Below, one piece after another: positions 4,087 to 23,809 of a DNA stretch of 64,000 nucleotides (positions within the stretch are counted from its first letter, which is position 1; every line of letters starts with the position of its first letter). This DNA comes from Prosthecobacter vanneervenii (lineage in GTDB: Bacteria; Verrucomicrobiota; Verrucomicrobiia; Verrucomicrobiales; Verrucomicrobiaceae). The stretch is from contig NZ_JACHIG010000001.1 of assembly GCF_014203095.1 (NCBI RefSeq), positions 1 to 64,000 on the forward strand, given 5' to 3'. A program made the position numbers and the translations under genes. The notes under the pieces are model-generated. The model worked only from the letters and a program-made list of their open reading frames with translations, searched no databases and was not told the DNA's origin.

Positions 4087-5061
4087 TTATTGAGCGATCA
4101 GCGCATAATGTAAACCAGCAGACGGTATTTTTTTTGTGCTGGAATTGCGGCAGCTTGTCTCCTTAGGCGGCAACTCCCTGGCACCGATCAGACGCAGACG
4201 GTGGATTTCCAGCTGCGCTGCCTTGGAACTGGCCTGGAGAAAGACCACCAGCTGGTGAACAAGCCGTCTGTCAGCGTTCCGGGGCCAGACGATCTGGATG
4301 CTACTGGTTCCCGCCTGCATCCAGCCACCCGCACGAATACGCCTGGCCCCATCTTCATTCACGTCCAGCCGCACACCCACTTCCACCGCCGAATCTGACT
4401 GCAGTGTGCCAGAGATCTCAAGGCCTTCGTAGTCGCTCCAGTCGCGGTCCAAGGTGTCCAGATGGATGCTGCCAGGGTGGTTTGCGTCTCGCGTCAGCAG
4501 CAGGCAGGGGCCCTTTCCTCGATCTCGCACCTGAGAAGGCTCTATCGTCCACAATAAATGCATGCCTGGGCGGGAGCTTTGAACAAGCGTTGGAAACAAG
4601 CGCTGAGCCTCGGCTTGCACGAGCCAAACCTGCACACACCAAAGAGTGGGGGGGGCCAGCGCGCAGAACAGCGCCAGCATATAGGTAGTGAGAGCCACCG
4701 GCTTTGAGTTCTGCTGGGCGGCTCCCTGCCAGAGGCAACCCCCGAGGATTCCTGCCATTCCCCATAGGAAATCAGCCAGGCTGCTCGTGCGACCAAACCA
4801 AGGCTGCACCCATTCGATCAGAGCCGCTATCACCATAGCCACAGGCGCGGCAAGCAACAGGCTCGGGATCGCTGCCAAATATTTTGTGAACAGGTATGCC
4901 ACAGTAAACACGCATACTGCCATCAGTGGAGCGTGCAGACGATTGGTCAACTCACCACGCCAGCCCGCTGACCAACCATGCGGCAGAGGCAGAAAAAACA
5001 GAAGCAAAGCCAGTGCTAGGATGGCCAGACAGATTAGGGAAGGGAGGAGCGAGCGCTTCAA
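4087..5061 (-). CDS. VanZ-like membrane protein with C-terminal soluble domain
   Basis: The start is uncertain. The frame is open to 5274, but that would overlap the divergent YdcF-like gene. A TTG at 5061 (residues MKRSLLPSL) directly precedes the first membrane helix and is preferred, giving 324 residues. The N-terminal half has about five hydrophobic segments and the VanZ hallmark, an acidic residue in a helix (IEWVQPWFGR) followed by TSSLADFLWG. The C-terminal 150 residues are soluble and beta-rich (LEISGTLQSD, EVGVRLDVNEDG), possibly a beta-sandwich. VanZ-type proteins often sit in exopolysaccharide clusters; their biochemical role is not settled. It is first in the minus-strand group with the AlgD-like dehydrogenase. 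Confidence 0.75.
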   Translation of the reverse strand: MKRSLLPSLICLAILALALLLFFLPLPHGWSAGWRGELTNRLHAPLMAVCVFTVAYLFTKYLAAIPSLLLAAPVAMVIAALIEWVQPWFGRTSSLADFLWGMAGILGGCLWQGAAQQNSKPVALTTYMLALFCALAPPTLWCVQVWLVQAEAQRLFPTLVQSSRPGMHLLWTIEPSQVRDRGKGPCLLLTRDANHPGSIHLDTLDRDWSDYEGLEISGTLQSDSAVEVGVRLDVNEDGARRIRAGGWMQAGTSSIQIVWPRNADRRLVHQLVVFLQASSKAAQLEIHRLRLIGARELPPKETSCRNSSTKKIPSAGLHYALIAQ

Positions 5062-6744: not shown

Positions 6745-9700
6745 ATGAAAAGCATCCTTACTCTGACCCGCGCCTTTGCTGCCATTTTGACGGCAGTGCT
6801 GTTCAGCCGCGGCAACCTGCAAGCTGCTGTCCTTACCTGGGACACTGTCAGCGGGGATAGTGGCGTCATTACTGGCGGCTCGGGTGCCTGGATTGACGCC
6901 AGTGGCAACTGGAACAACGGTTCTACGGATGTGCTGTGGAACAACGTTACGCCTGACAGCGCCATCTTCGGCGGGCTTGCAGGTACGATCACTCTGGGCG
7001 GTGGCATCACCGTCGGGAACATGACTTTCAACGCTGGCACGGGAAATTACACGATTGATGGTGCTGGTAATGTTCTCACCCTCTCCAGTTCACTCATCAC
7101 AGTCAACACGGATGCCACCATCGCTGCCATCCTCGGCGGTTCGACCGGCCTCACTTTGGCGGGCACGAATAAGCTGGTGCTTTCCGCCGCCAGCACGTTT
7201 ACCGGTGATTTGAACATCAATTCTGGCACCCTGGAAATTTCTGGCACAGGAACTGTCCTCCAGAACAACAATGCCTCCACCGTCACTGTGGCATCAGGTG
7301 CCACGGCCTTGCTGAGCGGCAGTGCCAACAACGTCCTAGGCTGGGGCGGCAGCGGGATTTCGGGCTCCTATGAACAATGGGTGGTTGCTGGAACCATCAA
7401 CAACACCGGTGGTGCTGCTCAGACGATTCCCTTTGGTGGTATCGCTTTGAACGGGGGCACTCTTACCAGCAGTACCGGTAATGCCTTTTTCGGCTCTTAT
7501 CATGTGAACGCCAGCAGTGGTGTTATCACGGCCAATGGCACCGGTAACACGATCAGTGCCGTCGATGTTGGCATTGGCAACACCACGGCCACGATATCCA
7601 CGCCGCTTGCAGGTGACACACTCACGACATCGAGTGTTTTCAAGGATATCGGCGGCGTCGGTGCTCTGACAAAGACAGGTGCAGGAACCATGATCATGAC
7701 TGGTGCCAGCACCTACACCGGGGCCACAACAATCAGCGGTGGGGCTTTGCAGGTGGATGGCTCGCTGGCTTCCGGCAGCACCGTGGGTGTGGGAACGGCG
7801 GGTGCCCTGACGGGTTCGGGAACGGTCAGCGGCAACGTCACCCTCACTGGCAGCGGCGTCATCAACAAGAACGGTGGCAGCATCGGCGGCACCCTGGGAG
7901 TGACTGGAGGCAGCTGGAACGGAACGGGCAGTGTGACCGGTCTGGTGACCTCCAGCAGTGGCACCTTCACCATCGGCAGCGGTGCCAATCTGACTGCCAA
8001 TGGCAACCTCAACGTGACGGGCGGCACTCTTGCCAGCGGCAGCAGCACAAGCACGATCACCGGCAGTGTGAACTACACCAGCGCCAGCAGCAGCACCTTT
8101 GGCGGCGTGATCGCCGGCAGCGGCAAGACGCTGACGATGAACAACGCGTCATCGACGCTGACCCTCAGCGGCAGCAATACCTATACGGGAGCCACCACGA
8201 TCAGCGCCGGCACTCTTCAGATTGGCGGCGGTGGAACGACAGGCGCGTTGTCCACCAGCAGCGCCATCACCAACAACGCTGCGCTGGCCTTCAACCGCAG
8301 CAACACGGTCACCCAAGGTACTGACTTCGCCAGCGCCATTAGCGGCAGCGGCAGTGTGACGCAGGCTGGCAGCGGCTCTCTCATCCTCTCTGGGGCCAAT
8401 ACTTACACCGGTGCGACGACGGTCAGCGCGGGGGTGGTGAACATTCAAAATGCTGCAGCCCTGGGTACCGTAGCCGGTGGTACGAGTGTGAGTTCAGGTG
8501 CTGCCCTGCAGATTCAGGGCGGCATCGTCGTGGGAGCCGAGGCATTGACCTTGAACGGTACGGGTGTGAGCAATGACGGCGCACTGCGCACCATCAGCGG
8601 CACCAACACTTATGGCGGTCTGGTCACGCTCGGCAGCTCCACACGCATCAACTCCGATGCTGGCAGCACGCTGTATCTGACCAACACCGGCACGATCACC
8701 GGATCAGGTTTTGGCCTCACAGCCGGTGGCGCTGGCAACACCACGATCGCCGGCATCATCGGCACTGGCACAGGTACCCTGACTAAAGATGGCGCTGGCG
8801 ATCTGTATCTGACTGGAGCCAACACCTACACCGGCACGACCACCATCAGCGGTGGCAGGCTGGTTATCGGCAGCGGCAGCACGACGGGTTCTTTGTCCAC
8901 CAGCAGCGCCATCGTCAACAATGCCACCCTGGCATTCTGGCGCAGCAACACGCTGACGCAGGGAGCGGACTTTGCCAGTGTGATCAGCGGCAGTGGTGCG
9001 GTGAGCCAGGCAGGCGTCGGCACGACGATCCTGAACGGAGCCAACACTTACACAGGAGCAACGACCGTGAGCACGGGCGTGCTGAACATCCAGAATGCTA
9101 CAGCTCTGGGCACTACGGCTGCGGGCACCACTGTGCTGTCGGGGACGGCCTTGCAGATTCAGGGCGGCATCGTCGTGGGAGCCGAGGCATTGACCTTGAA
9201 CGACACGGGTGTCAGCAATGACGGCGCACTGCGCAACATCAGCGGCACCAACACCTATGGCGGTCTGGTCACGCTCGGCAGCTCCGCACGCATCAACTCC
9301 GATGCTGGCAGCACGCTGTATCTGACCAACACCGGCACGATCACCGGATCAGGTTTTGACCTCACAGCGGGTGGCGCTGGCAACACCACGATCGCCGGGA
9401 TTATCGGCACCGGCACAGGTGCCGTTACCAAAGACGGCGCTGGCGATCTGTATCTGACGGGTGCCAACACCTACACCGGCACGACCACCATCAGCGGCGG
9501 CAGGCTGGTTATCGGCAGCGGCAGCACGACGGGTTCTTTGTCCACAAGCAGCGCCATCGTCAACAATGCCACCCTGGCATTCTGGCGCAGCAACACGCTG
9601 ACGCAGGGAGCGGACTTTGCCAGTGTGATCAGCGGCAGTGGTGCGGTGAGCCAGGCAGGCGTCGGCACGACGATCCTGAACGGAGCCAACACTTACACAG

Positions 9701-12700
9701 GAGCAACGACCGTGAGCACGGGCGTGCTGAACATCCAGAATGCTACAGCTCTGGGCACTACGGCTGCGGGCACCACTGTGCTGTCGGGGACGGCCTTGCA
9801 GATCCAGGGCGGCATTGTTGTGGGGGCCGAGGCATTGACCTTGAACGGTACGGGTGTCAGCAACGACGGCGCACTGCGCAACATCAGCGGCACCAACACT
9901 TATGGCGGTCTGGTCACTCTGGGCAGTTCCTCACGCATCAACTCAGACGCAGGCGCGCTGACTCTCAGCAACACGGGAACGATCACCGGCTCTGGACTGG
10001 CGCTGACTGTCGGCGGAGCGGGGAACACGACGATCAACAGCATCATCGGCACTGGCACAGGCACGCTGACTAAGGACGGTGCGGGAACCCTGGCACTTAC
10101 CGCCGCCAGCACCTACACTGGCGTGACGACCATCAGCGCAGGCACACTGAGCGTGGGCACCATTGGCAATGGTGGCGTGGCCGGGAACCTGGGCCAAGCC
10201 TCAAACGCTGCTGCCAACCTCGTCTTTGACGGCGGCACCCTGCAATATACTGGCAGCACCGCGACTTCCGACCGTGCCTTCACGATCAATGCTGGCAAGA
10301 CGGCAACGATTGACACGAGCAATGACCTTACCTTGGTCGGCGCCACAGGAGCCGCAACTACTGGAGCCCTGACAAAGACCGGGTCCGGAGCTTTGATCCT
10401 GACTGGCGTGAGTACTTACACAGGAACGACCACGATCAGCGCTGGTACTTTGCAGGTGGGTGCTGGCGGCACGACCGGGGCGCTCGCATCCGGTAGTGCC
10501 ATCATTAACAATGGTACGCTGGTTTTCAACCGCAGCAATACAGTCACCCAGGGCTCTGACTTTAACAGCGTCATCAGCGGCAGCGGCGGGCTGACGCAGG
10601 CAGGCAGCGGTACGCTTCGGCTCACCGGTTCAAATACCTTCACTGGCAATGTGAACGTCACATCAGGGACTCTCGAAATTTCTGGCACTGGCGGCATACT
10701 CCAGTCCTCGAATAGCGCAACTGTCACCATCGCTTCCGGTGCGACTGCGTTGTTGAGTGGCACTAGCAACAATGCTCTGGGCTATAACGGGACGGAAAAA
10801 TGGGTTGTGGCGGGAACGGTGAACTCCACGGGTGGTGCGGCTCATAACGTTCCATTTGGTGGTATTACTCTGAACGGTGGCACTATAACCAGCACCTCGG
10901 GCAATTCGACCTATGGATCGTTTATTCAGAGTATCTTCGGTGGCGTCATTACGGCCAACGGCACTGGCAATACTATCAGCGCGGTAGATTTTGGCATTCA
11001 GGCTGGTGCTACCTTGACTCTCGCGACGCCATTGGGTGGCGACTCGCTCACTGCTTCTTCGGTATTTAAGAATTACACTGGGGCTGGGGCGCTTTCCAAG
11101 ACTGGGCTGGGTACAGTAAAGCTTACAGGAGTGAGCACCTACACTGGCGTGACGACCATCAGCGCAGGCACACTGAGCGTGGGCACCATTGGCAATGGTG
11201 GCGTGGCCGGGAACCTGGGCCAAGCCTCAAACGCTGCTGCCAACCTCGTCTTTGACGGCGGCACCCTGCAATATACTGGCAGCACCGCGACTTCCGACCG
11301 TGCCTTCACGATCAATGCTGGCAAGACGGCAACGATTGACACGAGCAATGACCTTACCTTGGTCGGCGCCACAGGAGCCGCAACTACTGGAGCCCTGACA
11401 AAGACCGGGTCCGGAGCTTTGATCCTGACTGGCGTGAGTACTTACACAGGAACGACCACGATCAGCGCTGGTACTTTGCAGGTGGGTGCTGGCGGCACGA
11501 CCGGGGCGCTCGCATCCGGCAGTTCCATCACTAACAATGGTACGCTGGTTTTCAACCGCAGCAATACAGTCACCCAGGGCTCTGACTTTAACAGCGTCAT
11601 CAGCGGCACGGGCAAACTGACCCAGGCCGGTAGTGGAACACTGGTGCTCAATGGCAGCAACACTTACTCAGGCTTGACGACAGTGAGCACTGGTGTGCTG
11701 AATATTCGAAGCGCCGGTGCGCTGGGAACGACCGCTGCGGGAACCAGCGTCACTTCTGGAGCTGCGCTGCAGATCCAGGGCAACATCACCACCGCCTCTG
11801 AGGCTCTGACACTGAACGGAACGGGCGTGAGCAACGATGGTGCCTTGCGCAACATCAGTGGCAACAACAATTACGCTGGGTTGATTACCCTTGGAAGCTC
11901 TACGCGGATCAACTCTGATGCAAACAACTTGGAATTGAGCAATGTGGGAACGATTACCGGAGCCGGACTCGACTTGACTGTTGGAGGGGCTGGTAATGTC
12001 ATTATTAGCAGCAACATCGGTACGGGCAGCGGCGCATTGGTCAAAGACGGCACAGGAACTCTGACGCTACTTAGAGGCAGTTCATATACTGGCGCCACCA
12101 CGGTGAGCGCGGGCATCCTCAACCTCCAAGCCAATGCGGGCCTCGGTACGACAGCAGGCGGCACTTCAGTGAGCAATGGTGCAACTCTGCAGTTGCAAGG
12201 CGGTATCACGGTTGGGGCGGAAGCGCTTACGCTCAATGGTGGCGCAGCCAGCGGCCAGTCTGGCGCCTTGGTCAACGTCAGCGGTAGCAACACCTATGGC
12301 GGTGCGATCACTGTGGCTGCGAGCAGCTCGATTTCGGCAGCCAGCGGCTCAACGCTCACTCTGACGGGTGGTGTGGTAAAGAACGGCACGGTGGCTACCT
12401 TCACTGGTGGCGGCACGATTAATGTCAGCACGACGGCCATCAGCGGAGCTTCTGCAAACTCCGATGTCATTGTAGATGGAGTGACTGTGAACCTGAACGT
12501 GGCCAACACCTACAATGGTCCGACCTTCATCCGAAACAGTGGTACGCTCAACGCCAATGTGGCCAATGCGCTTCCGACAGCTAATGGTCGTACCGCAGTG
12601 ACCTTTGACGGAACCGGCACATCAGTCCTTGCCTTGGGGGCTTCTCAATCGGTGGCTTCGTTGACTTCCGCTGGCGGGGCAACGGTGACTTTAGGCAGCA

Positions 12701-15700
12701 ATACTCTGACCGTTGGCAGCGCTTCCGGAAGCACGACTTTCGCGGGTTCCATCGGTGGCACTGGTGGGCTGGTGAAAGACGGCGCCAGCACTCAAATCCT
12801 TGGTTCCAACAACAGTTATACGGGTGCTACAACGATTAGCGCTGGCAATCTGACTTTGCAGGGAACGTATGCTTCCAGCGGTTTTGCCATCTCATCGGGA
12901 GCTACGCTTGAATTCAATTCCGCTTCATCTTTGGATTATGGAACGACCACCTTCTCCGGAGCTGGAAAGCTTCTGAAGACCGGCACAGGTGAACTCAGGT
13001 GGGGAGGTAATGCTGCTACCTTCGCGCTGACTTCGGGGGCTCTTATCGACATCCAGGGCGGTTTGATGGTTGGGGGGAACTTTGCCAACGAAGTTTGGAC
13101 GAACAACAAGTCGGATTTGAACATCGCCAGCGGAGCCTTCTTTGCGGGTGTGGAAGCCAATGTCAGAGTCAATGCGCTGACTGGTGGCGGAACTCTTTCC
13201 ACCGGTTACAGCGGCAGCGGCTACACGAGTTTGACGGTCGGGGTTGACAATGGAGGCGGCACTTTCTCAGGGAGCATTACTGATGGGGTCGCCAGTTTGG
13301 GTGGTTATTCTGATTTCGGGGGCGCTGTCGCCACCGGCAACCTGACCAAGGCTGGCACGGGAACCCAGGTGCTTTCTGGTGCAAACACCTATTCCGGCAC
13401 CACCACGGTGAGCGCGGGCATTCTCAACATTCAAAACGCCACGGGTCTCGGCACCACGGCGGCTGGTACATCCGTCACCAATGGCGCGACTCTGCAGCTG
13501 CAAGGCGGCATCACGGTGGGGGCGGAGGCGCTGACTCTGAATGGCGGCGCGGCCAGCGGCCAGACCGGCGCCTTGGTCAACGTCAGCGGCACCAACACCT
13601 ACGGCGGCGCGATCACCGTGGCATCCAGCAGCTCCATCTCAGCAGCCAGCGGCTCGGTGCTCAACCTGACGGGTGGTGTGGTAAAGAACGGCACGGTGGC
13701 TACCTTCAATGGTGGCGGCACGATTAATGTCAACACGACGGCCATCAGCGGATCGTCTGCTAATTCCGATCTGGTGATCGATGGCACGACGGTGAACCTG
13801 AACGTGGCCAACACCTACAACGGCCCGACATTCATCCGCAACAGCGCCACGCTCAACGCGAACGTGACCAATGCCCTGCCTACGGCCAACGGCCGCACCG
13901 CCGTGACCTTTGATGGCACTGGCCCCTCGGTGCTTACCCTTGGCGCAGCTCAATCTGTGGCCTCGCTGACGGCTGCAAGTGCCGCGACCATCACCCTGAA
14001 TGCAAACACTCTCACTGTGGGGGATGCGAGCAGCAACACGACCTTTGCGGGCGCGATTGGCGGCACGGGCGGATTGACCAAGGACGGAGCCAGCACTCTG
14101 GTGCTCAGCGGCAGCAACGGCTACAGCGGCACGACGACGGTGAGCGCGGGGACTTTGTCGATCACGGGAGACATCAACAGCTCGGCGACGATAGCAGTCA
14201 GTGGTGGCTCGCTCACCACCAGCGGAGCTGACAAGCTGGCAAACGCAGCCGCAGTGACGGTGTCTGGCGGGACGTTGACGGTGGGTGGATCGGACACGAT
14301 TGGCACGCTCACGATGAGCAGCGGCACGATTGGCGGAACAGCGACACTGACAGCAACGACCTACGACCTGAGCGGTGGCACGGTGAATGGCAATCTGGGC
14401 ACGGGCACGATCAACAGCTCCGGCACAGTGGCCCTCAATGGCACAGCGGCGGCGGGGACGGTGAATGTCACGGCAGGCACGCTGACCCTGGGCGCCAGCA
14501 GCGCGATCAACAGTGCGACAGCGGTGAGCGTCAGCGGTGGCAGCCTAGCGCTGGGAGCGTCCAATCAGATTGGGGACAGCGCTACGGTGACGGTGTCCGG
14601 TGGAACTCTGGCCATGGGAACCAACAACGACACCATCAGCGTGCTGAGCCTGAGCAGTGGAACGGTCAGCGGCAGTGGCACGCTGACAGCCACGACTTAC
14701 ACTTTGAGTGGAGGCACGGTCAATGCCAACCTGGGAACAGGTACGATCAACAGCTCCGGGACGGTGGCCCTCAATGGCACAGCGGCGGCAGGGACGGTGA
14801 ATGTCACGGCAGGCACGCTGACCCTGGGCGCCAGCAGCGCGATCAACAGTGCGACAACGGTGAGCGTCAGCGGTGGTAGCTTGGCGCTGGGAGCGTCCAA
14901 CCAGATCGGCAACAGCGCTACGGTGACAGTGTCCGGTGGAACTCTGGCCATGGGAACCAACAACGACACCATCAGCGTGCTGAGCCTGAGCAGTGGAACG
15001 GTCAGTGGCAGTGGCACACTGACAGCTACGACCTATGGGTTGAGCGGAGGCACGGTGGATGCCAACTTGGGAACAGGCACGATCAACAGCTCCGGGACGG
15101 TGGCTCTCAATGGCACTGCAGCGGCGGGGACGGTGAATGTCACGGCAGGCACGCTTACTTTGGGCGCCAGCAGTGCGATCAACAGTGCGACAGCGGTGAG
15201 CGTCAGCGGTGGTAGCTTGGCGCTGGGGGCGTCCAACCAGATCGGCAACAGCGCTACGGTGACGGTGTCCGGTGGTACTCTGGCTATGGGAACCAACAAC
15301 GACACCATCAGTGTGTTGAGCCTGAGCAGTGGAACGGTCAGTGGCAGTGGCACGCTGACAGCCACGACCTATGGGTTGAGCGGAGGCACGGTGGATGCCA
15401 ACTTGGGAACAGGCACGATCAACAGCTCCGGGACGGTGGCTCTCAATGGCACCGCAGCGGCGGGGACGGTGAATGTCACGGCAGGCACGCTGACCCTGGG
15501 CGCCAGCAGTGCGATCAACAGTGCGACAGCGGTGAGCGTCAGCGGTGGTGGCAGCCTGGTGCTGGGAGCGTCCAACCAGATTGGCAACAGCGCTACGGTG
15601 ACGGTGTCCGGTGGAACTCTGGCCATGGGAACCAACAACGACACCATCAGCGTGCTGAGCCTGAGCAGTGGAACGGTCAGCGGCAGTGGCACGCTGACAG

Positions 15701-18700
15701 CCACGACTTACACTTTGAGTGGAGGCACGGTCAATGCCAACCTGGGAACAGGCACGATCAACAGCTCCGGGACGGTGGCCCTCAATGGCACAGCGGCGGC
15801 AGGGACGGTGAATGTCACGGCAGGCACACTGACCCTGGGCGCCAGCAGTGCGATCAACAGTGCGACAACGGTGAGCGTCAGCGGTGGCAGCCTGGTGCTG
15901 GGAGCATCCAATCAGATTGGGGACGGCGCTACGGTGACGGTGTCCGGTGGTTCTCTGGCCATGGGGGCCAACAACGACACCATCAGCGTGCTGAGCTTGA
16001 GCAGTGGAACGGTCAGCGGCAGTGGCACACTGACAGCCACGACTTACACTTTGAGTGGTGGCACGGTCAATGCCAACCTGGGAACAGGCACGATCAACAG
16101 CTCCGGGACGGTGGCTCTCAATGGTACAGCGGCGGCGGGGACGGTGAACGTCACGGCAGGCACGCTGACCCTGGGCGCCAGCAGTGCTATCAACAGTGCG
16201 ACTGCGGTGAGTGTCAGCGGTGGCAGCTTGGCGCTGGGGGCGTCCAATCAGATCGGGGACAGCGCCACGGTGACCGTGTCCGGTGGGTCTCTTGCTATTG
16301 GAACCTACAGCGACACTGTTTCGGCCGTGCAATTGACTGGCGGCAACATCACCGGAACCACAGGTGTTCTTACCAGCACCAGCACCTATGACGTGCGCTC
16401 CGGAAGCGTTAGCGCCATTCTTGGGGGCACGGTGGGATTGACGAAGTCCACTGGCGGCACGGTGACTCTGTCGAACTCTAACACCTATACCGGAACGACA
16501 ACCGTCAGCGGGGGAACTCTAACGCTTAGCGGTTCAGGTCAGATCTCCGACAATTCATCCGTCGTGGTCTCCGGCGGTACCTTCGATATTGGAACGGTGA
16601 GTGACACCGTGGCAGGCGTTCAACTAACCTCGGGCGGCATCACGGGGTCCACAGGTGTGCTGACTAGCAGCAGCACCTACGACATGCAGAATGGCTCGGT
16701 AAGCGCCATCCTCGGCGGCAGCGTAGGACTGAACAAGACGACTTCCGGCACCGTGACACTGAGTGGCAGCAACACCTACACAGGAGGCACGTCCTTGACC
16801 AATGGAAACCTTGTGGTCAATGGAAGCATCGGCAGCAGCAGTTTGACAACGATCGATGGAGGAACCTTGATGGGAACAGGTACTGTGGGTGCCATCCAGC
16901 TCAACAGCGGCGGTGCAATCAATCCTGGAGGAGCCTCCTCTGCGGGGACGCTGAGCACAGGAAATATTTCCATCGTGGATGGTCAGCTCCACTTCAACAT
17001 TGGCGGCACCGGTGCCGGTAGCTATGACCAGCTCAACACCAATGGAACGATCAACCTTGCCGCAGGCGGTGCCGGTGCCAAGCTTGTGCTGGACGCCATC
17101 AATGGCTACACAGCAACTCTGAACAATGCCTTCACCCTTGTGAGCAACGATTTGACGGACGCTATTACCGGAAAGTTTGCCAAAGGCACCTTTAGCGGCA
17201 CGAAGTTGATCACGCTGAGTGGAGTGGATTATGTAGAAAACGTGCTTGGTTCAAGCTATTATGGTCGCATCAACTACTCCGGCAGCTCTCTGGCACCGGG
17301 CACGTTGGCCAGCTCTGGCAACGATGTCATCCTCAAGATTGTGACTCCTGAGATCACTATCACTGAATCTGGAAACAACCAGACAGACGGGGGGACCTAC
17401 GACTTTGGCGATGTGGACAAGGTCGTGCCCTCTGTGCCTCTGACCAAGACCTTCACGATCAAGAACGATGGTGAAGTCGATCTGATGGGGATTGTGATCC
17501 ACACTCCAACGGGCGCTGCTGCTTCCGATTACACCTTGGATTTGACTGGCACTGCCTCCACGCTCATCCCCGGAGCTAGCACCACCTTTAAAATCACGTT
17601 TGATCCAAGCCGCATCGGAACGCGGAATGCAGACATCGTGATAGACAGTAATGACTTGGATGAAAATCCCTTCAACCTAGCACTGACCGGTGTGGGCACG
17701 ATCGCCCGCGATGTCAGTGAACCTTGGACGGTTTTGTATGGTGGAGTGAATGCGCCCGCCACACGTCGTGATGGTGTGGCAATGGCCGTGGCAGTGCAGA
17801 AAAGCACGACTCGTGACGAGGCGGTGGCGGTTTTTGCCACAGGTTATACGACGAATGCGGCCTCCAATCGGGACATTTACACGGCCAAGTATGATCCGGT
17901 GACCGGGGCAAAATCTTGGGAACGCATTTTTGCAGGTGCCGCCGGTATGGATGACGAGGCCGCTGCAATCGCGGTGGATGCCAATGGAGATGTGGTGATC
18001 ACCGGTTACACCACCGTCGCTGCCAACAATTCGGATGTGTATGTGGCCAAATACTCCGGGGCAGATGGTTCCTTGGTTTGGGAGCGCACTTATGCAGGCA
18101 GTGGTGGAAGTTTTGATGAAGGCAACAGCATTGCGGTGCATTCCTCCGGACGCGTCCTGGTGGCGGGCTACGGCAGGACCAGCAGCGGTGCTGACATGTT
18201 TGCCGCAGGTTATTCAGGCTCCGATGGCAGTGTGCTCTTTGAGCGCCTGATCGAAGGTGGTGGCAATGGAGATGATCTGGCTCGCAGTGTTGCTGTGGAC
18301 AGCGCCGGCGATCTGGCAATCGCAGGCTATGTGCGTGGTTCAGCCAAGGACTTCAGAGTGATGAAGCTCAGCGGTACCAGCGGCGCCACGGCATGGCAGT
18401 GGAATGTGAACGGCAGCACAAACTCAAATGACGAGGCATTCGCGGTGGCTTTTGACTCCACCGGGCAGGTGGTCGCAACCGGAACAGTGAGTGCGGCAAA
18501 CTTTGATCTTTACACTGTCAAGCTGACTGCTGCTGGAGCGCTGGTCTGGCAGAAGCAATGGAACAGTTCGTTCAACTCTTCGGACGCCGGCTACGACATT
18601 GCAGTGGATAATTCAGGAAATGTAATTGTGGGGGGAACAAGCTACCGCGCTGCCAGTGTGATGGATGGCTATGTGGCAGAGTATGCCGCTGGCACGGGGG

Positions 18701-20820
18701 CATTGGTCTGGGAGCGCCGGTTCAATGGCTCGGTTTCAAATCAGGACGCCATCAACTCAGTGGATCTGGATGGCTTGGGTAATGTGGTGGCGACAGGTTT
18801 CTCATATAATGCCACCCCCAATTCGGATGTGTTAACCGCCAAGATATTTGCCACAGACGGCGGCTTGGTATGGGAAAAAAGGTACAACGGTGTCGCCAAC
18901 CGTTGGGATAATGGCGCTTCCGTGGCGGTATCGCCAGATGGCAACATTTATGTTGGCGGCTACGCTGGCAGTTCAGCTGGAACCTTGGATTTCATGGTCA
19001 AAAACTATCAGGCGGTCATTCCTGCGGTGCAGACCTCTCAGTTCATCGCGTTCTCCAACCCCGGTGGGCCTCGCGTTGCCGGGTCCGACCTGCCGCTTTC
19101 AGCCTCAGCCTCCAGCGGGCTGCCGGTCAAGTTCACTATTGTCAGCGGACCTGCAACAGTCACTGACAGCGGCAACATGCTTAGCTTTACTGGAGCAGGT
19201 ACGGTGACTGTTCGTGCCAGCCAGCAGGGAAACAGCACGTATGCGAAGGCGACTCCCGTGGATCAGACATTCTCCGTCATCAAGAGCGGTCAGACCATTA
19301 CCTTCACTCCGCCCGCCAGTTTGGCGTCTACGGCGCAGTGGCCGCTTACGGGGCTGTCCACCAGCGGCTTGCCGCTTTCTTACAGTGTGCAGAGCGGGCC
19401 TGGTACCATCACCAGTGGAGTGTTGAGTTTCAGCGGCGCTGGTGCCGTTGTTGTCCGAGCCAGTCAGGCAGGAGATGCAAGGTTCAACGCCGCCGCAAAT
19501 GTGGATGCCACGATAACATCAGTGAATAATGCGCCGATCATCATCTTGGATAATATTGCTGAGAACTGGCGGGACCGCTATGCAGGCAGCGGAGCAGGGC
19601 AGGGCAATGATCTTGCGTTGCAACTCAGTGGCAACACTGCCGTGGCCGGTTTCGTGGGCGGCTACACCACCACCAGCACAGGCAAAGACCTTTACCTCGC
19701 CAAATATCTCGCTGATGGCACGCTGGTGTGGACCGTCATCAGCGGCACCAGTGGCAACGACGAGGCCATGAGTGTGAAGGTTGATGGCAACGGGGATGTG
19801 CTCGTTGCCGGGTACGTCACCACAGGAACTGGCCAAGATGTCTATGTGGCCAAGTACAACGGCGGCACGGGTGCTAGAATCTGGTCCTACACCTACAATG
19901 GCACGGCCAATGGAAATGATGTCGGCGTATCCTTGGCCTTGGAAGGCACCACCAATGTGGCGGTGGGGGCTTACGTGGTGAGCACGGGTGCAGGTAACGA
20001 TTTCTTCGCCGCCAAGCTCAACCAGAGCACGGGTGCGGTTGTGTGGACAAGTGTGCAGCCCCGCAGCGGCACCACTTCGGATGTGCCCGTCAAAGTCGCC
20101 GTGGGCACGGACGGTGGCGTTGTGCTTGCAGGCGCCTCCGGCAGTGACGCTTGGACGATTAAACTTGCCTCTGCCACCGGCAGCAGGATCTGGCAGCAGG
20201 TGTACAATTACGCAAACAAACCCGATGCCGTTCGTGGCCTCGCGCTTGATGCCGCCGATAACGTGATCATTGCCGCCTACTCGCAAGGGGCCAACTACGA
20301 CATGTACACTGCCAAGTACGCAGCGTTGGACGGTAGTTTAATCTGGGGCCAGCGTTACAACAGCAGCTTCAACTCTTCCGATGCACCGTGGGATTTGGTG
20401 GTGGACGGAAATGCCAATGTTTTTGTCACCGGTACATCTTACCGCTCGGCCAGCGTGCGCGATGGAATGACGCTGAAATATGCCGGTCTCGATGGTGCGC
20501 TGGTTTGGGAAAAGCGCTTCAATGGTTCGAGCGGCGGCAATGATGAAAACACCTCCATCTCTCTAGACGGCATCGGCAATCCTGTGATCAGCGGCTACAC
20601 CACGAACTCTGACGCGACCACCGACGTCTATCTTGCCAAGCATAACAAAGCTGCAGGGGACATTCGCTGGGAGAAGACTTTTGATGGTGACAATAACAAA
20701 AACGACAGCATCAAAAAAGTGCAAGTGGACCCCAACGGTAACGTCTGGATGACGGGCTCAGCGACCAACAGCAGCGGGTTTTTGGAGGTGCTTACCCTGC
20801 GCCACATTCCCAGCCTATAA
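6745..20820 (+). CDS. Giant secreted autotransporter-associated beta-strand repeat (PATR) protein
   Basis: A 4691-residue surface or secreted protein. It starts with a signal peptide (MKSILTLTRAFAAILTAVLF, cleavage near LQAAVLTW). Residues about 50-3530 are Gly/Ser/Thr/Asn-rich repeats with about 20 copies of the PATR core (forms of NTYTGATTISAGTLQ), expected to fold as a long right-handed beta-helix. Residues about 3535-3655 match an ASPM-SPD-2-Hydin (choice-of-anchor D) domain. A first beta-propeller of seven to eight units (GYTT...DVYVAKY...G.LVWER) follows at about 3658-4088, then two Ig-like units built around 'SGLP' segments at about 4095-4261, then a second beta-propeller at about 4270-4691. 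No C-terminal beta-barrel, PEP-CTERM or sortase signal is visible, so export and anchoring are unexplained. Several blocks are nearly identical at the DNA level. Role inferred: adhesin or surface fibre. Confidence 0.93.
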   Translation: MKSILTLTRAFAAILTAVLFSRGNLQAAVLTWDTVSGDSGVITGGSGAWIDASGNWNNGSTDVLWNNVTPDSAIFGGLAGTITLGGGITVGNMTFNAGTGNYTIDGAGNVLTLSSSLITVNTDATIAAILGGSTGLTLAGTNKLVLSAASTFTGDLNINSGTLEISGTGTVLQNNNASTVTVASGATALLSGSANNVLGWGGSGISGSYEQWVVAGTINNTGGAAQTIPFGGIALNGGTLTSSTGNAFFGSYHVNASSGVITANGTGNTISAVDVGIGNTTATISTPLAGDTLTTSSVFKDIGGVGALTKTGAGTMIMTGASTYTGATTISGGALQVDGSLASGSTVGVGTAGALTGSGTVSGNVTLTGSGVINKNGGSIGGTLGVTGGSWNGTGSVTGLVTSSSGTFTIGSGANLTANGNLNVTGGTLASGSSTSTITGSVNYTSASSSTFGGVIAGSGKTLTMNNASSTLTLSGSNTYTGATTISAGTLQIGGGGTTGALSTSSAITNNAALAFNRSNTVTQGTDFASAISGSGSVTQAGSGSLILSGANTYTGATTVSAGVVNIQNAAALGTVAGGTSVSSGAALQIQGGIVVGAEALTLNGTGVSNDGALRTISGTNTYGGLVTLGSSTRINSDAGSTLYLTNTGTITGSGFGLTAGGAGNTTIAGIIGTGTGTLTKDGAGDLYLTGANTYTGTTTISGGRLVIGSGSTTGSLSTSSAIVNNATLAFWRSNTLTQGADFASVISGSGAVSQAGVGTTILNGANTYTGATTVSTGVLNIQNATALGTTAAGTTVLSGTALQIQGGIVVGAEALTLNDTGVSNDGALRNISGTNTYGGLVTLGSSARINSDAGSTLYLTNTGTITGSGFDLTAGGAGNTTIAGIIGTGTGAVTKDGAGDLYLTGANTYTGTTTISGGRLVIGSGSTTGSLSTSSAIVNNATLAFWRSNTLTQGADFASVISGSGAVSQAGVGTTILNGANTYTGATTVSTGVLNIQNATALGTTAAGTTVLSGTALQIQGGIVVGAEALTLNGTGVSNDGALRNISGTNTYGGLVTLGSSSRINSDAGALTLSNTGTITGSGLALTVGGAGNTTINSIIGTGTGTLTKDGAGTLALTAASTYTGVTTISAGTLSVGTIGNGGVAGNLGQASNAAANLVFDGGTLQYTGSTATSDRAFTINAGKTATIDTSNDLTLVGATGAATTGALTKTGSGALILTGVSTYTGTTTISAGTLQVGAGGTTGALASGSAIINNGTLVFNRSNTVTQGSDFNSVISGSGGLTQAGSGTLRLTGSNTFTGNVNVTSGTLEISGTGGILQSSNSATVTIASGATALLSGTSNNALGYNGTEKWVVAGTVNSTGGAAHNVPFGGITLNGGTITSTSGNSTYGSFIQSIFGGVITANGTGNTISAVDFGIQAGATLTLATPLGGDSLTASSVFKNYTGAGALSKTGLGTVKLTGVSTYTGVTTISAGTLSVGTIGNGGVAGNLGQASNAAANLVFDGGTLQYTGSTATSDRAFTINAGKTATIDTSNDLTLVGATGAATTGALTKTGSGALILTGVSTYTGTTTISAGTLQVGAGGTTGALASGSSITNNGTLVFNRSNTVTQGSDFNSVISGTGKLTQAGSGTLVLNGSNTYSGLTTVSTGVLNIRSAGALGTTAAGTSVTSGAALQIQGNITTASEALTLNGTGVSNDGALRNISGNNNYAGLITLGSSTRINSDANNLELSNVGTITGAGLDLTVGGAGNVIISSNIGTGSGALVKDGTGTLTLLRGSSYTGATTVSAGILNLQANAGLGTTAGGTSVSNGATLQLQGGITVGAEALTLNGGAASGQSGALVNVSGSNTYGGAITVAASSSISAASGSTLTLTGGVVKNGTVATFTGGGTINVSTTAISGASANSDVIVDGVTVNLNVANTYNGPTFIRNSGTLNANVANALPTANGRTAVTFDGTGTSVLALGASQSVASLTSAGGATVTLGSNTLTVGSASGSTTFAGSIGGTGGLVKDGASTQILGSNNSYTGATTISAGNLTLQGTYASSGFAISSGATLEFNSASSLDYGTTTFSGAGKLLKTGTGELRWGGNAATFALTSGALIDIQGGLMVGGNFANEVWTNNKSDLNIASGAFFAGVEANVRVNALTGGGTLSTGYSGSGYTSLTVGVDNGGGTFSGSITDGVASLGGYSDFGGAVATGNLTKAGTGTQVLSGANTYSGTTTVSAGILNIQNATGLGTTAAGTSVTNGATLQLQGGITVGAEALTLNGGAASGQTGALVNVSGTNTYGGAITVASSSSISAASGSVLNLTGGVVKNGTVATFNGGGTINVNTTAISGSSANSDLVIDGTTVNLNVANTYNGPTFIRNSATLNANVTNALPTANGRTAVTFDGTGPSVLTLGAAQSVASLTAASAATITLNANTLTVGDASSNTTFAGAIGGTGGLTKDGASTLVLSGSNGYSGTTTVSAGTLSITGDINSSATIAVSGGSLTTSGADKLANAAAVTVSGGTLTVGGSDTIGTLTMSSGTIGGTATLTATTYDLSGGTVNGNLGTGTINSSGTVALNGTAAAGTVNVTAGTLTLGASSAINSATAVSVSGGSLALGASNQIGDSATVTVSGGTLAMGTNNDTISVLSLSSGTVSGSGTLTATTYTLSGGTVNANLGTGTINSSGTVALNGTAAAGTVNVTAGTLTLGASSAINSATTVSVSGGSLALGASNQIGNSATVTVSGGTLAMGTNNDTISVLSLSSGTVSGSGTLTATTYGLSGGTVDANLGTGTINSSGTVALNGTAAAGTVNVTAGTLTLGASSAINSATAVSVSGGSLALGASNQIGNSATVTVSGGTLAMGTNNDTISVLSLSSGTVSGSGTLTATTYGLSGGTVDANLGTGTINSSGTVALNGTAAAGTVNVTAGTLTLGASSAINSATAVSVSGGGSLVLGASNQIGNSATVTVSGGTLAMGTNNDTISVLSLSSGTVSGSGTLTATTYTLSGGTVNANLGTGTINSSGTVALNGTAAAGTVNVTAGTLTLGASSAINSATTVSVSGGSLVLGASNQIGDGATVTVSGGSLAMGANNDTISVLSLSSGTVSGSGTLTATTYTLSGGTVNANLGTGTINSSGTVALNGTAAAGTVNVTAGTLTLGASSAINSATAVSVSGGSLALGASNQIGDSATVTVSGGSLAIGTYSDTVSAVQLTGGNITGTTGVLTSTSTYDVRSGSVSAILGGTVGLTKSTGGTVTLSNSNTYTGTTTVSGGTLTLSGSGQISDNSSVVVSGGTFDIGTVSDTVAGVQLTSGGITGSTGVLTSSSTYDMQNGSVSAILGGSVGLNKTTSGTVTLSGSNTYTGGTSLTNGNLVVNGSIGSSSLTTIDGGTLMGTGTVGAIQLNSGGAINPGGASSAGTLSTGNISIVDGQLHFNIGGTGAGSYDQLNTNGTINLAAGGAGAKLVLDAINGYTATLNNAFTLVSNDLTDAITGKFAKGTFSGTKLITLSGVDYVENVLGSSYYGRINYSGSSLAPGTLASSGNDVILKIVTPEITITESGNNQTDGGTYDFGDVDKVVPSVPLTKTFTIKNDGEVDLMGIVIHTPTGAAASDYTLDLTGTASTLIPGASTTFKITFDPSRIGTRNADIVIDSNDLDENPFNLALTGVGTIARDVSEPWTVLYGGVNAPATRRDGVAMAVAVQKSTTRDEAVAVFATGYTTNAASNRDIYTAKYDPVTGAKSWERIFAGAAGMDDEAAAIAVDANGDVVITGYTTVAANNSDVYVAKYSGADGSLVWERTYAGSGGSFDEGNSIAVHSSGRVLVAGYGRTSSGADMFAAGYSGSDGSVLFERLIEGGGNGDDLARSVAVDSAGDLAIAGYVRGSAKDFRVMKLSGTSGATAWQWNVNGSTNSNDEAFAVAFDSTGQVVATGTVSAANFDLYTVKLTAAGALVWQKQWNSSFNSSDAGYDIAVDNSGNVIVGGTSYRAASVMDGYVAEYAAGTGALVWERRFNGSVSNQDAINSVDLDGLGNVVATGFSYNATPNSDVLTAKIFATDGGLVWEKRYNGVANRWDNGASVAVSPDGNIYVGGYAGSSAGTLDFMVKNYQAVIPAVQTSQFIAFSNPGGPRVAGSDLPLSASASSGLPVKFTIVSGPATVTDSGNMLSFTGAGTVTVRASQQGNSTYAKATPVDQTFSVIKSGQTITFTPPASLASTAQWPLTGLSTSGLPLSYSVQSGPGTITSGVLSFSGAGAVVVRASQAGDARFNAAANVDATITSVNNAPIIILDNIAENWRDRYAGSGAGQGNDLALQLSGNTAVAGFVGGYTTTSTGKDLYLAKYLADGTLVWTVISGTSGNDEAMSVKVDGNGDVLVAGYVTTGTGQDVYVAKYNGGTGARIWSYTYNGTANGNDVGVSLALEGTTNVAVGAYVVSTGAGNDFFAAKLNQSTGAVVWTSVQPRSGTTSDVPVKVAVGTDGGVVLAGASGSDAWTIKLASATGSRIWQQVYNYANKPDAVRGLALDAADNVIIAAYSQGANYDMYTAKYAALDGSLIWGQRYNSSFNSSDAPWDLVVDGNANVFVTGTSYRSASVRDGMTLKYAGLDGALVWEKRFNGSSGGNDENTSISLDGIGNPVISGYTTNSDATTDVYLAKHNKAAGDIRWEKTFDGDNNKNDSIKKVQVDPNGNVWMTGSATNSSGFLEVLTLRHIPSL
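8509..9950 (+). repeat. 645-bp near-identical tandem duplication inside the giant gene
   Basis: The same sequence recurs with a period of exactly 645 bp (215 codons); for example 'cagattcagggcggcat' starts at 8509 and 9154, with a one-base variant at 9799. A little over two periods are present, and long runs are identical or differ at single bases. The period is a multiple of three, so the reading frame is kept. This implies recent unequal recombination or gene conversion. Confidence 0.85.
10111..11611 (+). repeat. Two nearly identical 475-bp blocks, 1026 bp apart
   Basis: Bases 10111-10585 and 11137-11611 are almost identical (a few substitutions, for example tccggtagtgcc versus tccggcagttcc), offset by 1026 bp or 342 codons. 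The 550 bases between them are unlike both blocks and resemble the N-terminal region near 7190-7680. Frame is preserved. Confidence 0.85.
12097..13905 (+). repeat. Diverged 500-bp block duplicated with 1305-bp offset
   Basis: Bases about 12097-12600 recur at about 13402-13905. The encoded segments match closely (GGVVKNGTVATF, then AISG..ANSD, NVANTYNGPTFIRNS and NALPTANGRTAV in both), but the DNA differs at many third positions, so this duplication is older than the 645-bp and 1026-bp ones. The offset is 435 codons. Confidence 0.8.
14353..16330 (+). repeat. Six tandem 112-codon repeats (336 bp) in the giant gene
   Basis: Six copies start at 14353, 14689, 15025, 15361, 15700 and 16036. The unit is 336 bp except copy 4, which is 339 bp because of one extra Gly codon (SVSGGGSL). 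Each unit begins ATTY.LSGGTV and includes GTGTINSSGTVALNGTAAA. Copies 2 and 5 share one version (TYTLSGGTVNA) and copies 3 and 4 another (TYGLSGGTVDA), a pattern expected from unequal exchange. Copy 6 diverges at its end. The array also creates a long antisense open frame that is not a gene. Confidence 0.92.
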
Positions 20821-20870: not shown

Positions 20871-21626
20871 ATGAATTCCCTACATCTCAAAAACCTTCTT
20901 GTGCTGCTGATCCTCAGTCATGGTTTTGCTTTACGCAGCAGTGCTACGGAGATTATCAATTCCGGACCAAGCTTGAGCGTGGTTCAGGGGGATGCCGCTT
21001 CGTTTAACGCTCAGTTCTTCGATGCCGACGGCAACGGCGGCGTCGACATCCGGGCTGTGCATGTGGCTACAGGGCAAACCATTGGGCAGTTCGTGCGCAG
21101 CGACGACACTGGTGATTTACAATGGACTTGTGATACTAGCACGCTTCCCACCGGCACCAACCCTGTGCAACTCATCGCCACGGATCCGGCTGGAGAAAGT
21201 GCTGTAGTGTCGATATCGTTGCAGATCAATCCAGCCTCCTCTGTGCAGCAGTGGCGGCAGACTCATTTTGGCAGCAGCCAGAACAGTGGTGCTGCATTGA
21301 ACAGTGCAGATCCAGACGGAGATGGTTTGAACAACTTTGCGGAATTTGCCTTTGGTCTGGATCCGAAAATTGGCAATCCTGATGTGGGTAATCGCATTGA
21401 AAGTGACGCAGGCAGGATGAAAGTGATGTTCCGACGCCGCAAAGACTATCAGAGTGCGGGGCTCAACTACATCTATGAGTTCAGCAACGACCTGCAGGGA
21501 TGGGAGGCAAGTTCGTTTAGCCCACAGGTTCTTAGTGATGATGGCACGATGGAAAACCTAACGCTGGAGTTTCCTATGCTGAGCAATGGCCAGACCAGCC
21601 GGTTTTTCCGCACGCGTGTCGAGTAG
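20871..21626 (+). CDS. Small secreted protein with calcium-loop-like motif and verrucomicrobial C-terminal module
   Basis: A 251-residue exported protein. Residues 1-26 are a signal peptide (LLVLLILSHGFALRSSA). Residues about 30-125 look like an Ig-like domain (SLSVVQGDAASFNAQFFDADGNGG). An Asp-rich loop, SADPDGDGLNNFAEFAFGLDP, at about 144-164 resembles thrombospondin type 3 or dockerin-like calcium loops. The last 60 residues (FRRRKDYQSAGLNYIYEFSND to SRFFRTRVE) resemble a module that ends many secreted proteins of Verrucomicrobiota, as I recall it. The gene begins 50 bases after the giant repeat gene on the same strand, and co-expression is likely. I infer an envelope or export partner of the giant protein; nothing proves it. 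Confidence 0.78.
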   Translation: MNSLHLKNLLVLLILSHGFALRSSATEIINSGPSLSVVQGDAASFNAQFFDADGNGGVDIRAVHVATGQTIGQFVRSDDTGDLQWTCDTSTLPTGTNPVQLIATDPAGESAVVSISLQINPASSVQQWRQTHFGSSQNSGAALNSADPDGDGLNNFAEFAFGLDPKIGNPDVGNRIESDAGRMKVMFRRRKDYQSAGLNYIYEFSNDLQGWEASSFSPQVLSDDGTMENLTLEFPMLSNGQTSRFFRTRVE

Positions 21627-21746: not shown

Positions 21747-22670
21747 ATGTCAGTCGAAAGCAGCTCATGCCGCACTCCTGTGCTATTTTTGATCCACCGT
21801 CGTCTCGGGCCTGCCACACGGGTCATGTCGGCATTGAAATTGGCTCGGCCTGAAGTGCTGCTTATAGCGGCAGACGGCCCGCATGATGACGCGAGGTGTG
21901 CAGATGTCAGAGAGCAGATGCTCAACAAAATCGACTGGCCATGTCAGGTGGCAACGCGATTCCTGGATGAGCAAATGGGCTGTCGCAATGCAGTCTCCTC
22001 TGCTTTGGACTGGGCCTTTGGTTTACATGAGCAGCTTATCATTCTAGAAGACGACTGCGTGCCGCATGCCTGTTTCTTTGCATTTTGTTCAGCCATGCTC
22101 GATCGGTACAAAAACGAGTCTGAGGTAATGCAGATCTGTGGAAGCAATCTCACCGGCATGCGACCAGCGGAGCAGAGCTATTTTTTTTCGCGGTTTGGTC
22201 CCATCTGGGGCTGGGCCTCCTGGCGGCGCGCCTGGCAGGCTTATGATGTCGAGATGAAAGAATGGAGCACGCTGAGAAATTCCACGCGATTGCACCAGCT
22301 CTGCCCCGAACCCTTTGAGGCTGGCTGGCGGCATGAAGTGCTTGAAGCGGTATATCGAGGCGAAGTGGATACATGGGACTATCAGTGGGCTTTTGCCAAG
22401 CTTCGCTCAGGCGGTCTGAACATCGTGCCTGCGGTCAATCTGGTATCAAACATCGGCTTTGGGGAGGATGCCACCCACACCACTAACGCAGATGATCCAC
22501 GAGCAGAAATGGAAATACATGAGCTTGCTTCCCCCTTGCGGCATGCAGATAAGATTATTGCGTGGCAGGAGGCAGACCGTGCTTATTTAACCCAAGTCGT
22601 TGGCCTGCCGGAAAGCATCTGGTCCGCCAAGGGGATACGCCGCAGCCTCCGCTCACTTTTTAAGTTATGA
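21747..22670 (+). CDS. Glycosyltransferase, GT-A fold (HlpA-like)
   Basis: A 307-residue predicted cytoplasmic glycosyltransferase. The N-terminal part (PVLFLIHRRLGPATRVMSAL, then VLLIAADGPHDD) is typical of the nucleotide-binding half of GT-A enzymes. The metal-binding acidic motif is LIILEDDCVPH at about residues 96-106. The later segment FGPIWGWASWRRAW is shared with HlpA-type proteins in polysaccharide loci. No membrane helix is seen. It begins the plus-strand glycan locus, and its stop overlaps the next start as ATGA. The sugar donor cannot be read from the sequence. Confidence 0.82.
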   Translation: MSVESSSCRTPVLFLIHRRLGPATRVMSALKLARPEVLLIAADGPHDDARCADVREQMLNKIDWPCQVATRFLDEQMGCRNAVSSALDWAFGLHEQLIILEDDCVPHACFFAFCSAMLDRYKNESEVMQICGSNLTGMRPAEQSYFFSRFGPIWGWASWRRAWQAYDVEMKEWSTLRNSTRLHQLCPEPFEAGWRHEVLEAVYRGEVDTWDYQWAFAKLRSGGLNIVPAVNLVSNIGFGEDATHTTNADDPRAEMEIHELASPLRHADKIIAWQEADRAYLTQVVGLPESIWSAKGIRRSLRSLFKL

Positions 22671-23809
22671 AGCGAGTCTGCCTTATTTCGACCGTGAATC
22701 ACAATGTCGGCGACGACTTTGTGCGTGAAGGCATTCTTTTCCTACTTCGTGACTTGCTTGGCGAGGTGGAAGCCAGAGTCATTCACAAACATTTTCCAGT
22801 CACGGTGCGTGGCGAGCCGTGGCCGCAGTTGGATCGACTGACACGGCACATGCCTAATTGGTTGAACTGGCGTACTCACATCGCCCGCGTGGCTGATTTG
22901 CTGCCCGGCAATCCAGCGGTGGATCTCGTGGTGGGCAGTGACTTGGTCGTTCAGTGTGGTGCCCCGGTGTATTGGAAGAATGCTTGGTCCACCTGTGCGC
23001 AAACTGAATGGTTCGCGCCGCTCATCGAACAGCGGTATAGGAAGCTCGAGCGAAGCGTGCCGCTGCTGAATCTTGGGGCCGGTTCCTGCCAGGCCTGGGG
23101 AAGCGCTGGTTCCGAGATTGTTTCAGATCCGGACTGCCGGTCTTTTATTGACCGCTTTACCCGCTGGAGTTCTGTGACGACAGTGCGCGACAAGCTGGCC
23201 CAGAGCATTCTGCACCAATGCGGGCATGAGGTGCCTTTGTTGCCATGCCCTTCTATTTTTGCTCCAGAAGCGCTGAGTGTGCAAAGCCGGCCCGGGCGGT
23301 ATATCGCGCTCAATTACATGCCTCTTGGCGGGCATTATGATCTTTCAGGTTACGGTGGCGTCGCGCTGCAACGATGGCAGCAGGCGTTCTGTATCACAGC
23401 ACGGGACCTTGCGCGGCGGCAGGAGTGTCTGCTCATCTGCCATGATCGCAGAGAGTTGGAGGAGGCGAAGCGTCTTCTCCCTGAGATCCCTCGTTTCTAC
23501 AGCGAGGACTGGCGGGCTTATCTGCAGGCCTACTCGTGCTGTAGCTCTGCAGTAGTAAATCGAGTTCACGGAGCGGTGGTGGCCGCCGCCATGGGAAAGC
23601 AGGTGCTGCTCACTGGAAACGATTCGCGCTTGCTCATGGCCGCAGAAGTGCCGGGTATAACCGTGCAGCCAGTTGATGAAGTTCTACACTCATTTGATGA
23701 GCGTGTGGCGGCTTTGCTGTGCCTGCCAGCCAGAGAAAAGCCTGAGGCTTTCATAGCTGCAACCAAGTCACGCTATCTGGAACTCCTGCGCCCCTTGTTG
23801 TCTCCATGA
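22667..23809 (+). CDS. Polysaccharide pyruvyl transferase family protein
   Basis: A 380-residue protein of the polysaccharide pyruvyl transferase family (CsaB/WcaK type), which moves pyruvate from phosphoenolpyruvate onto a sugar as a ketal. The N-terminus STVNHNVGDDFVREGILFLL matches the family's opening segment, and the C-terminal motif VVNRVHGAVVAAAMGK lies near residue 293-308. Inverting GT-B-like architecture is expected. It overlaps the previous and next genes by ATGA junctions, so the three are translationally coupled. Pyruvylation would add negative charge to the glycan. Some family members have other activities. Confidence 0.86.
   Translation: MKRVCLISTVNHNVGDDFVREGILFLLRDLLGEVEARVIHKHFPVTVRGEPWPQLDRLTRHMPNWLNWRTHIARVADLLPGNPAVDLVVGSDLVVQCGAPVYWKNAWSTCAQTEWFAPLIEQRYRKLERSVPLLNLGAGSCQAWGSAGSEIVSDPDCRSFIDRFTRWSSVTTVRDKLAQSILHQCGHEVPLLPCPSIFAPEALSVQSRPGRYIALNYMPLGGHYDLSGYGGVALQRWQQAFCITARDLARRQECLLICHDRRELEEAKRLLPEIPRFYSEDWRAYLQAYSCCSSAVVNRVHGAVVAAAMGKQVLLTGNDSRLLMAAEVPGITVQPVDEVLHSFDERVAALLCLPAREKPEAFIAATKSRYLELLRPLLSP

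Follow-up and report, generated by a model that had tools for sequence, protein, structure and literature searches.

How a bacterial gene comes to encode a protein of 4,691 residues, and what such a protein might do, is the question raised by the locus described here. Giant bacterial genes are known and are mostly unexplained. The present gene occupies positions 6745–20820 of the window, a 64,000-nucleotide stretch at the start of contig C1 of the 6.66-Mb, 33-contig draft genome of Prosthecobacter vanneervenii, henceforth referred to as G000. It was compared with relatives in the genomes designated G001, G010, G011, G012, G015, G016, G031, G032 and G445. All protein-coding features and repeats of the window described below are on the forward strand. 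A 5S rRNA gene was observed at 124–239, beside the contig start, and contig C1 is probably broken at an rRNA operon. A search of the open PMC literature found nothing on this locus.

The open reading frame contains no internal stop. The first-pass annotation had described its product as a 4,691-residue PATR protein, and this description was borne out by the 20 PATR stretches identified with Pfam PF12951 and, in equal number, with NCBIfam TIGR02601. A signal-like hydrophobic N-terminus (approximately residues 1–28) was recognized by eye. The passenger region that follows (7150–16821) contains the 20 PATR cores, the first at 7150–7239 and the last at 16732–16821, spanning residues 136 to 3359 of the protein. 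A HYDIN/DUF1573-like Ig domain was identified by Pfam at 17401–17691 (residues 3553–3649). The remainder of the protein, henceforth the cassette (17698–20817, residues 3652–4691), was found at full length in this genus only, among the genomes searched. It comprises a first propeller (17713–19017) and a second propeller (19552–20817), each probably eight-bladed, separated by Ig-like linkers (19030–19533). The two propellers resemble each other and constitute an additional repeat layer that the first-pass annotation had not named.

Structure predictions were obtained for both parts of the protein. The model of residues 2430–3000, covering one PATR core and the 112-residue units described below, was all beta with a mean pLDDT of 91, and was built on five alignment rows, two of them from one protein. 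In VIA-align comparisons it resembled pertactin (Z 19.2, rmsd 4.2, 325 residues aligned) and UpaB (Z 16.9), while Foldseek alone returned no match at E ≤ 0.001. The repeat passenger is thus predicted to be, most likely, an elongated beta-helix rod. For the last 1,040 residues the model (mean pLDDT 84.8, pTM 0.50) shows a pair of propellers connected by Ig-like linkers, and the propeller model aligned with the designed eight-bladed protein Tako8 with Z 35.5 and an rmsd of 2.1 over 317 residues.

The passenger region carries several layers of internal duplication. A 645-bp tandem array at 8503–10079 (2.4 copies, 92% matches) encodes 215-residue units and includes a 257-bp identical stretch (8902/9547). 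It is followed by a pair of 475-bp copies offset by 1026 bp (10108–10582 and 11134–11608), which differ by 3 mismatches in 475 bp and are identical over 386 bp. An older duplicate offset by 1305 bp was measured at 12028–12807 and 13333–14112, matching at 76% over 300 bp from about 12027. Lastly, six 336-bp units at 14347–16316 (5.9 copies, 92% matches), encoding the 112-residue units modelled as beta-helix, form an array in which one spacing is 339 bp, one unit having an additional codon. These are the layers that the first-pass annotation had named besides the PATR cores, and each was recovered. The repetition goes far beyond chance. The longest exact repeat in the frame is 386 bp, compared with a mean of 14.8 and a maximum of 18 in 50 codon shuffles, and a mean of 21.8 and a maximum of 29 in 50 synonymous reshuffles that preserved the protein. 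Since synonymous reshuffling never gave more than 29 bp, the identity exists at the DNA level and goes beyond that of a repetitive protein.

The layers are clearly of different ages, as had also been proposed. Synonymous divergence (dS) was 0.11 for the 645-bp pair, 1.35 for an older pair in the same register (8175 versus 8820), 0.98 for the 1305-bp-offset pair and 0.17–0.58 among the 336-bp units. In these repeat-copy comparisons dN was lower than dS, which suggests that selection acts on the encoded protein. A paralogous donor for the recent copies was sought within the genome and was absent from the 40 of 179 candidates scored, the best non-self match to passenger DNA being 71% over 371 bp. 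The possibility that duplications end in PATR cores as a rule was considered and rejected. The 475-bp copy at 10108 begins within a core and stops 9 bp short of another, but 18.6% of the region is occupied by cores, and of the 645-bp blocks two ends were tested, which are 60 and 154 bp away from cores. Such a rule is therefore no more than a hint.

The relatives, compared between species with one genome per species, differ in repeat number. PATR cores number 20 in G000, 15 in G012 (where the frames are broken), 17 in G011 by our own model (18 by Pfam) and 24 in G001, and are absent from both G016 genes (G016a and G016b) and from the truncated G015 gene. Near-full 112-residue units number six in G000, two in G012, two in G001, where they are adjacent, and one in G011; all four genes contain additional, diverged units as well. 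The first-pass annotation had expected repeat number to vary and had named identical numbers across diverged strains as the contrary outcome; equal numbers were not found at the level of species. The open frames in G000 and its relatives measure 4,691, 5,434, 6,195, 4,609 and 4,148 aa, the last counted from after an in-frame TAG upstream of which the open frame continues, and the G015 and G031 genes are cut by contig ends. Among the seven genes scanned with TRF, the 336- and 645-bp repeats were detected as arrays in G000 only, and G012, G001 and G016a carry different arrays of their own. The 112-residue units of G000 differ from those of the relatives with dS of 0.76–1.8, compared with 0.17–0.58 within G000. 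In the unit tree five of the six G000 units group together at 90/96 with the first unit outside, and no branch is starred. By these sequence comparisons, the 112-residue unit expansion is placed in the G000 lineage.

Changes in copy number are accompanied by changes in order and type. Passenger matches in the PATR-containing relatives reach 91% identity, but the repeats make most passenger windows ambiguous. Of 69 windows, 7 in G012, 8 in G011 and 4 in G001 were unambiguous and reciprocal, and these few windows contained one out-of-order block in G012, one in G011 and none in G001. A stronger claim of scrambled order, based on the best hits of 150-residue windows, was scaled back, several windows that are duplicates of one another having hit a single place. 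Besides PATR, the G012 and G011 passengers contain TIG and cadherin domains. The G015 passenger has HYDIN/ASH-type domains, and those of G016a and G016b contain DUF5122, HYDIN, and cadherin, NHL or TIG domains. Frame interruptions were also observed in relatives. The G012 gene (L054, on contig C21 of that genome) has an in-frame TAG at 4844–4846 and a frameshift at 14259–14293, close to a run of six G, and G016b (L058) has an in-frame TAG at 978–980 with the frame open on either side. These interruptions may represent pseudogenes, sequence errors, phase switching or stop read-through.

The cassette has a narrower distribution and a history of its own. At E ≤ 1e-40 it was matched in 15 of 68 genomes of the family. 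Full-length cassettes were present in seven of 48 genomes of the genus, in eight copies; G445 and G010 carry partial cassettes at contig ends, and the remaining six matching genomes, three of them from other genera, gave part-length matches only. When 387 genomes were drawn evenly from the phylum, four of them from this genus, G000 alone matched at E ≤ 1e-60. The two G016 genes, located at different loci, have 3,887 bp in common with zero differences. In both genes the identical block opens exactly with the VERDVALAW codons, where the cassette starts, and it stops 10–19 bp before the gene ends, whereas the 5′ parts show DUF5122-/cadherin-type similarity only (approximately 64–81% in short pieces). 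The simplest reading is that gene conversion has acted on the common part behind different stalks.

The cassette of the giant gene itself appears to be composite. Its first propeller is 81% identical to that of G011 and 58% to that of G012, whereas its second is 87% identical to that of G012 and 51% to that of G011. In the propeller 1 tree, G000 grouped with G011 (100/99.8) and a grouping of G000 with G012 was rejected (AU p = 4e-5). In the propeller 2 tree, G000 grouped with G012, G001 and G031 (100/100) and a grouping with G011 was rejected (AU p = 9e-48). These p-values are descriptive, because the groups were picked after the identities had been seen. For the Ig part by itself, neither grouping was decided (p = 0.056 for G000 with G011 and 0.2 for G000 with G012). 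G016b, which duplicates G016a, was omitted from the trees, in which G031 and G015 formed long branches. Kinship switches within the linkers, at approximately residues 4130–4210 (19132–19374). Judged from these trees and identities, the cassette is a chimera, with propeller 1 kin to one relative and propeller 2 to the others.

The same division of relatives recurs in the adjacent gene. A 251-residue protein with a signal-like start is encoded at 20871–21626, beginning 50 bp past the stop of the giant frame, and corresponds to the domain that forms, as a fusion, the C-terminus of the giant protein in four genes of three genomes (G011, G015, G016a and G016b). The fused forms have a proline-rich linker where the separate protein has its signal, and the G445 frame contains a partial match to the domain. 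It is a separate gene in G000, G012, G001 and G031. Since propeller 2 unites these four split-gene genomes, one fission or fusion event is enough to account for the arrangement. The domain, of approximately 125 residues with the motifs DPDGDG..N..EFAFG.NP and RRRKD, had no Pfam match above cut-off. Similar domains occur at 16 further places in G000, and in the seven of these that were examined the domain lies 0–16 residues from the protein C-terminus. Possibly it represents a sorting or anchoring domain that has not been described before.

Genes for glycan metabolism follow. A 307-residue probable glycosyltransferase (21747–22670) was proposed from an EDD-type motif recognized by eye; it co-occurs with the cassette and had no Pfam or NCBIfam match and no PDB sequence match at E ≤ 1. 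It is followed by genes for a polysaccharide pyruvyl transferase (22667–23809, PF04230) and a family 9 glycosyltransferase (23806–24954, PF01075), beyond which more glycan genes are found. The gene order is kept in G012 and G001, partly kept in G016a, and kept with one extra gene between in G015. Among the eight genomes of the genus that have both, the glycan cluster adjoins the giant gene in five; it is on a different contig in G011, and in G445 and G010 the cassette is at a contig end. Of the 9 genomes with the cassette 8 carry the 307-residue gene, compared with 3 of the 39 others in the genus (Fisher p = 3.7e-6, uncorrected for kinship). G032 has the neighbour genes on a contig of 7,959 bp that lacks the cassette, which either speaks against a strict link or reflects a cassette cut off there. 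The adjacent glycan genes may decorate the giant protein or the surface bearing it.

Taken together, the gene probably encodes a giant secreted surface protein, with a stalk and a double propeller, that has probably been rebuilt by repeat recombination, block movement and 5′ replacement. The signal-like N-terminus would be followed by a long stalk, a beta-helix of PATR and PATR-like modules, leading through the Ig domain to the two propellers with their Ig-like linkers. The stalk would change by recombination between its own repeats, by block movement and by replacement of entire 5′ parts, and the 3′ cassette behind it would be either retained or exchanged. The rod would hold the double propeller outside the cell, with the repeats setting its reach and the propellers serving as a constant binding or docking end. 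A more far-reaching version is tentative. According to it, the locus would belong to a surface-diversification system of the genus with reversed polarity, in which a conserved 3′ docking cassette is homogenized between loci by gene conversion and exchanged between species, 5′ stalks are replaced wholesale, and the sorting-type domain, cut off as a separate secreted partner, serves the giant protein in trans.

A simpler account would hold that this is a plain Periscope-type spacer, in which repeat number drifts, only stalk length matters and the rest is ordinary divergence. The high-identity tandem DNA repeats and the unequal frame lengths fit such a spacer, as does the kept order of the few unambiguous G001 windows, and PATR repeats already occur among Periscope proteins, 4–6 of them being listed for ShdA in one review (PMC9704523). 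However, passengers of other domain types ahead of the same cassette, together with the chimeric cassette, are not produced by copy-number drift alone, and the same holds for the identical 3′ block at two G016 loci and for the blocks that have moved, one in G012 and one in G011. We regard a simple spacer as unlikely. The first-pass annotation is modified accordingly: its rounds of internal duplication stand, whereas copy number alone does not account for a gene whose relatives have rearranged passengers, or passengers of another type, and exchanged cassettes.

The cassette could also be an enzyme. CylK was its top PDB match, both by sequence (E 4.4e-7) and by Foldseek, with 25% identity in the VIA alignment, and shares the propeller fold with the cassette model, so the giant protein might be a secreted enzyme with CylK-like propellers and putative catalysis, for which the repeats are merely a scaffold. 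Against this, the resemblance is of the kind shared by delta-60/SBBP blades in general (TIGR02608), and the model aligns equally well or better with many propellers that are unrelated. A secreted enzyme is accordingly an improbable reading.

Still less probable is that the identical copies are an assembly artefact. The genome is a 33-contig draft and the 386-bp identity exceeds many short reads, but in most layers the copies have diverged in a manner that respects codons, which makes an artefact unlikely for them, and the relatives have fewer copies of the same modules. Repeats are usually collapsed rather than created by assembly error, and the repeat counts may therefore be minimum values. 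A classical autotransporter adhesin (type Va) whose passenger is rich in PATR is the least credible alternative: although PATR is named for autotransporter passengers, the protein has such a passenger with weak matches to ShdA and other autotransporters, and two PATR frames of this genome (5,528 aa on C21 and 2,074 aa on C8) end in a true barrel, the autotransporter barrel PF03797 was looked for and was absent from the giant protein at E ≤ 0.01, the seven places where it occurs in the genome lie elsewhere, and the C-terminus is modelled as a propeller.

The stalk-and-propeller protein is not exceptional in size within its own genome. At least 19 open frames with PATR were found among the 150 of 500 candidate matches that were scored, and seven of these are longer than the giant frame. 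Long PATR frames of 11,644, 10,204, 8,722, 8,498, 8,399 and 7,942 aa were observed on contigs C1, C5, C7 and C9, several of them with PEP-CTERM. Besides the two of the 19 that carry a barrel, six carry PEP-CTERM (8,498, 8,399, 7,942, 10,204, 1,553 and 892 aa); PEP-CTERM (PF07589) occurs at seven places in the genome and was not found in the giant gene. The PATR repeat thus appears separable from the autotransporter route, frames of the same genome ending in a barrel, in PEP-CTERM or in neither. In this gene and its relatives, the rebuilding of giant proteins can be followed along several routes: tandem expansions that have been dated, blocks that have moved, passengers that have been replaced and cassettes that have been exchanged. 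Together they show with unusual clarity how a giant bacterial protein is reassembled piecewise. The C-terminal domain, fused in some genomes and free in others, offers a handle on the export or retention of such proteins.

The protein can be compared with several known systems. With the type V PATR passengers (PF12951/TIGR02601; the fold of pertactin and UpaB) it shares PATR cores and a predicted beta-helix; unlike them it has two terminal propellers and a separate C-terminal-domain gene in place of the barrel. The PEP-CTERM giants of the same genome are similarly PATR-rich, and differ in bearing the PEP-CTERM signal that the giant protein lacks. In polymorphic toxin systems, as described in PMC3482391, a portion of a large secreted protein is likewise swapped by recombination; the polarity here is opposite, with a variable passenger on the 5′ side and a constant 3′ end, and no toxin or immunity gene was recognized at the giant locus. 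The propellers share their blade family and fold with the delta-60/SBBP/DUF5122 proteins, CylK included, but are joined with Ig linkers into one cassette that is full-length in this genus only, among the genomes searched, with partial matches reaching three genomes of other genera. Periscope proteins are resembled in the long tandem repeats, which exceed 50 residues and are highly identical in DNA (the 112- and 215-residue units, at 92% each), in the predicted rod, and in a repeat number that differs between relatives, here species. The giant protein departs from them in having no recognized anchor and, as far as the sequence comparisons indicate, in a feature that is unusual for that class: the exchange of whole passengers and of half the terminal cassette.
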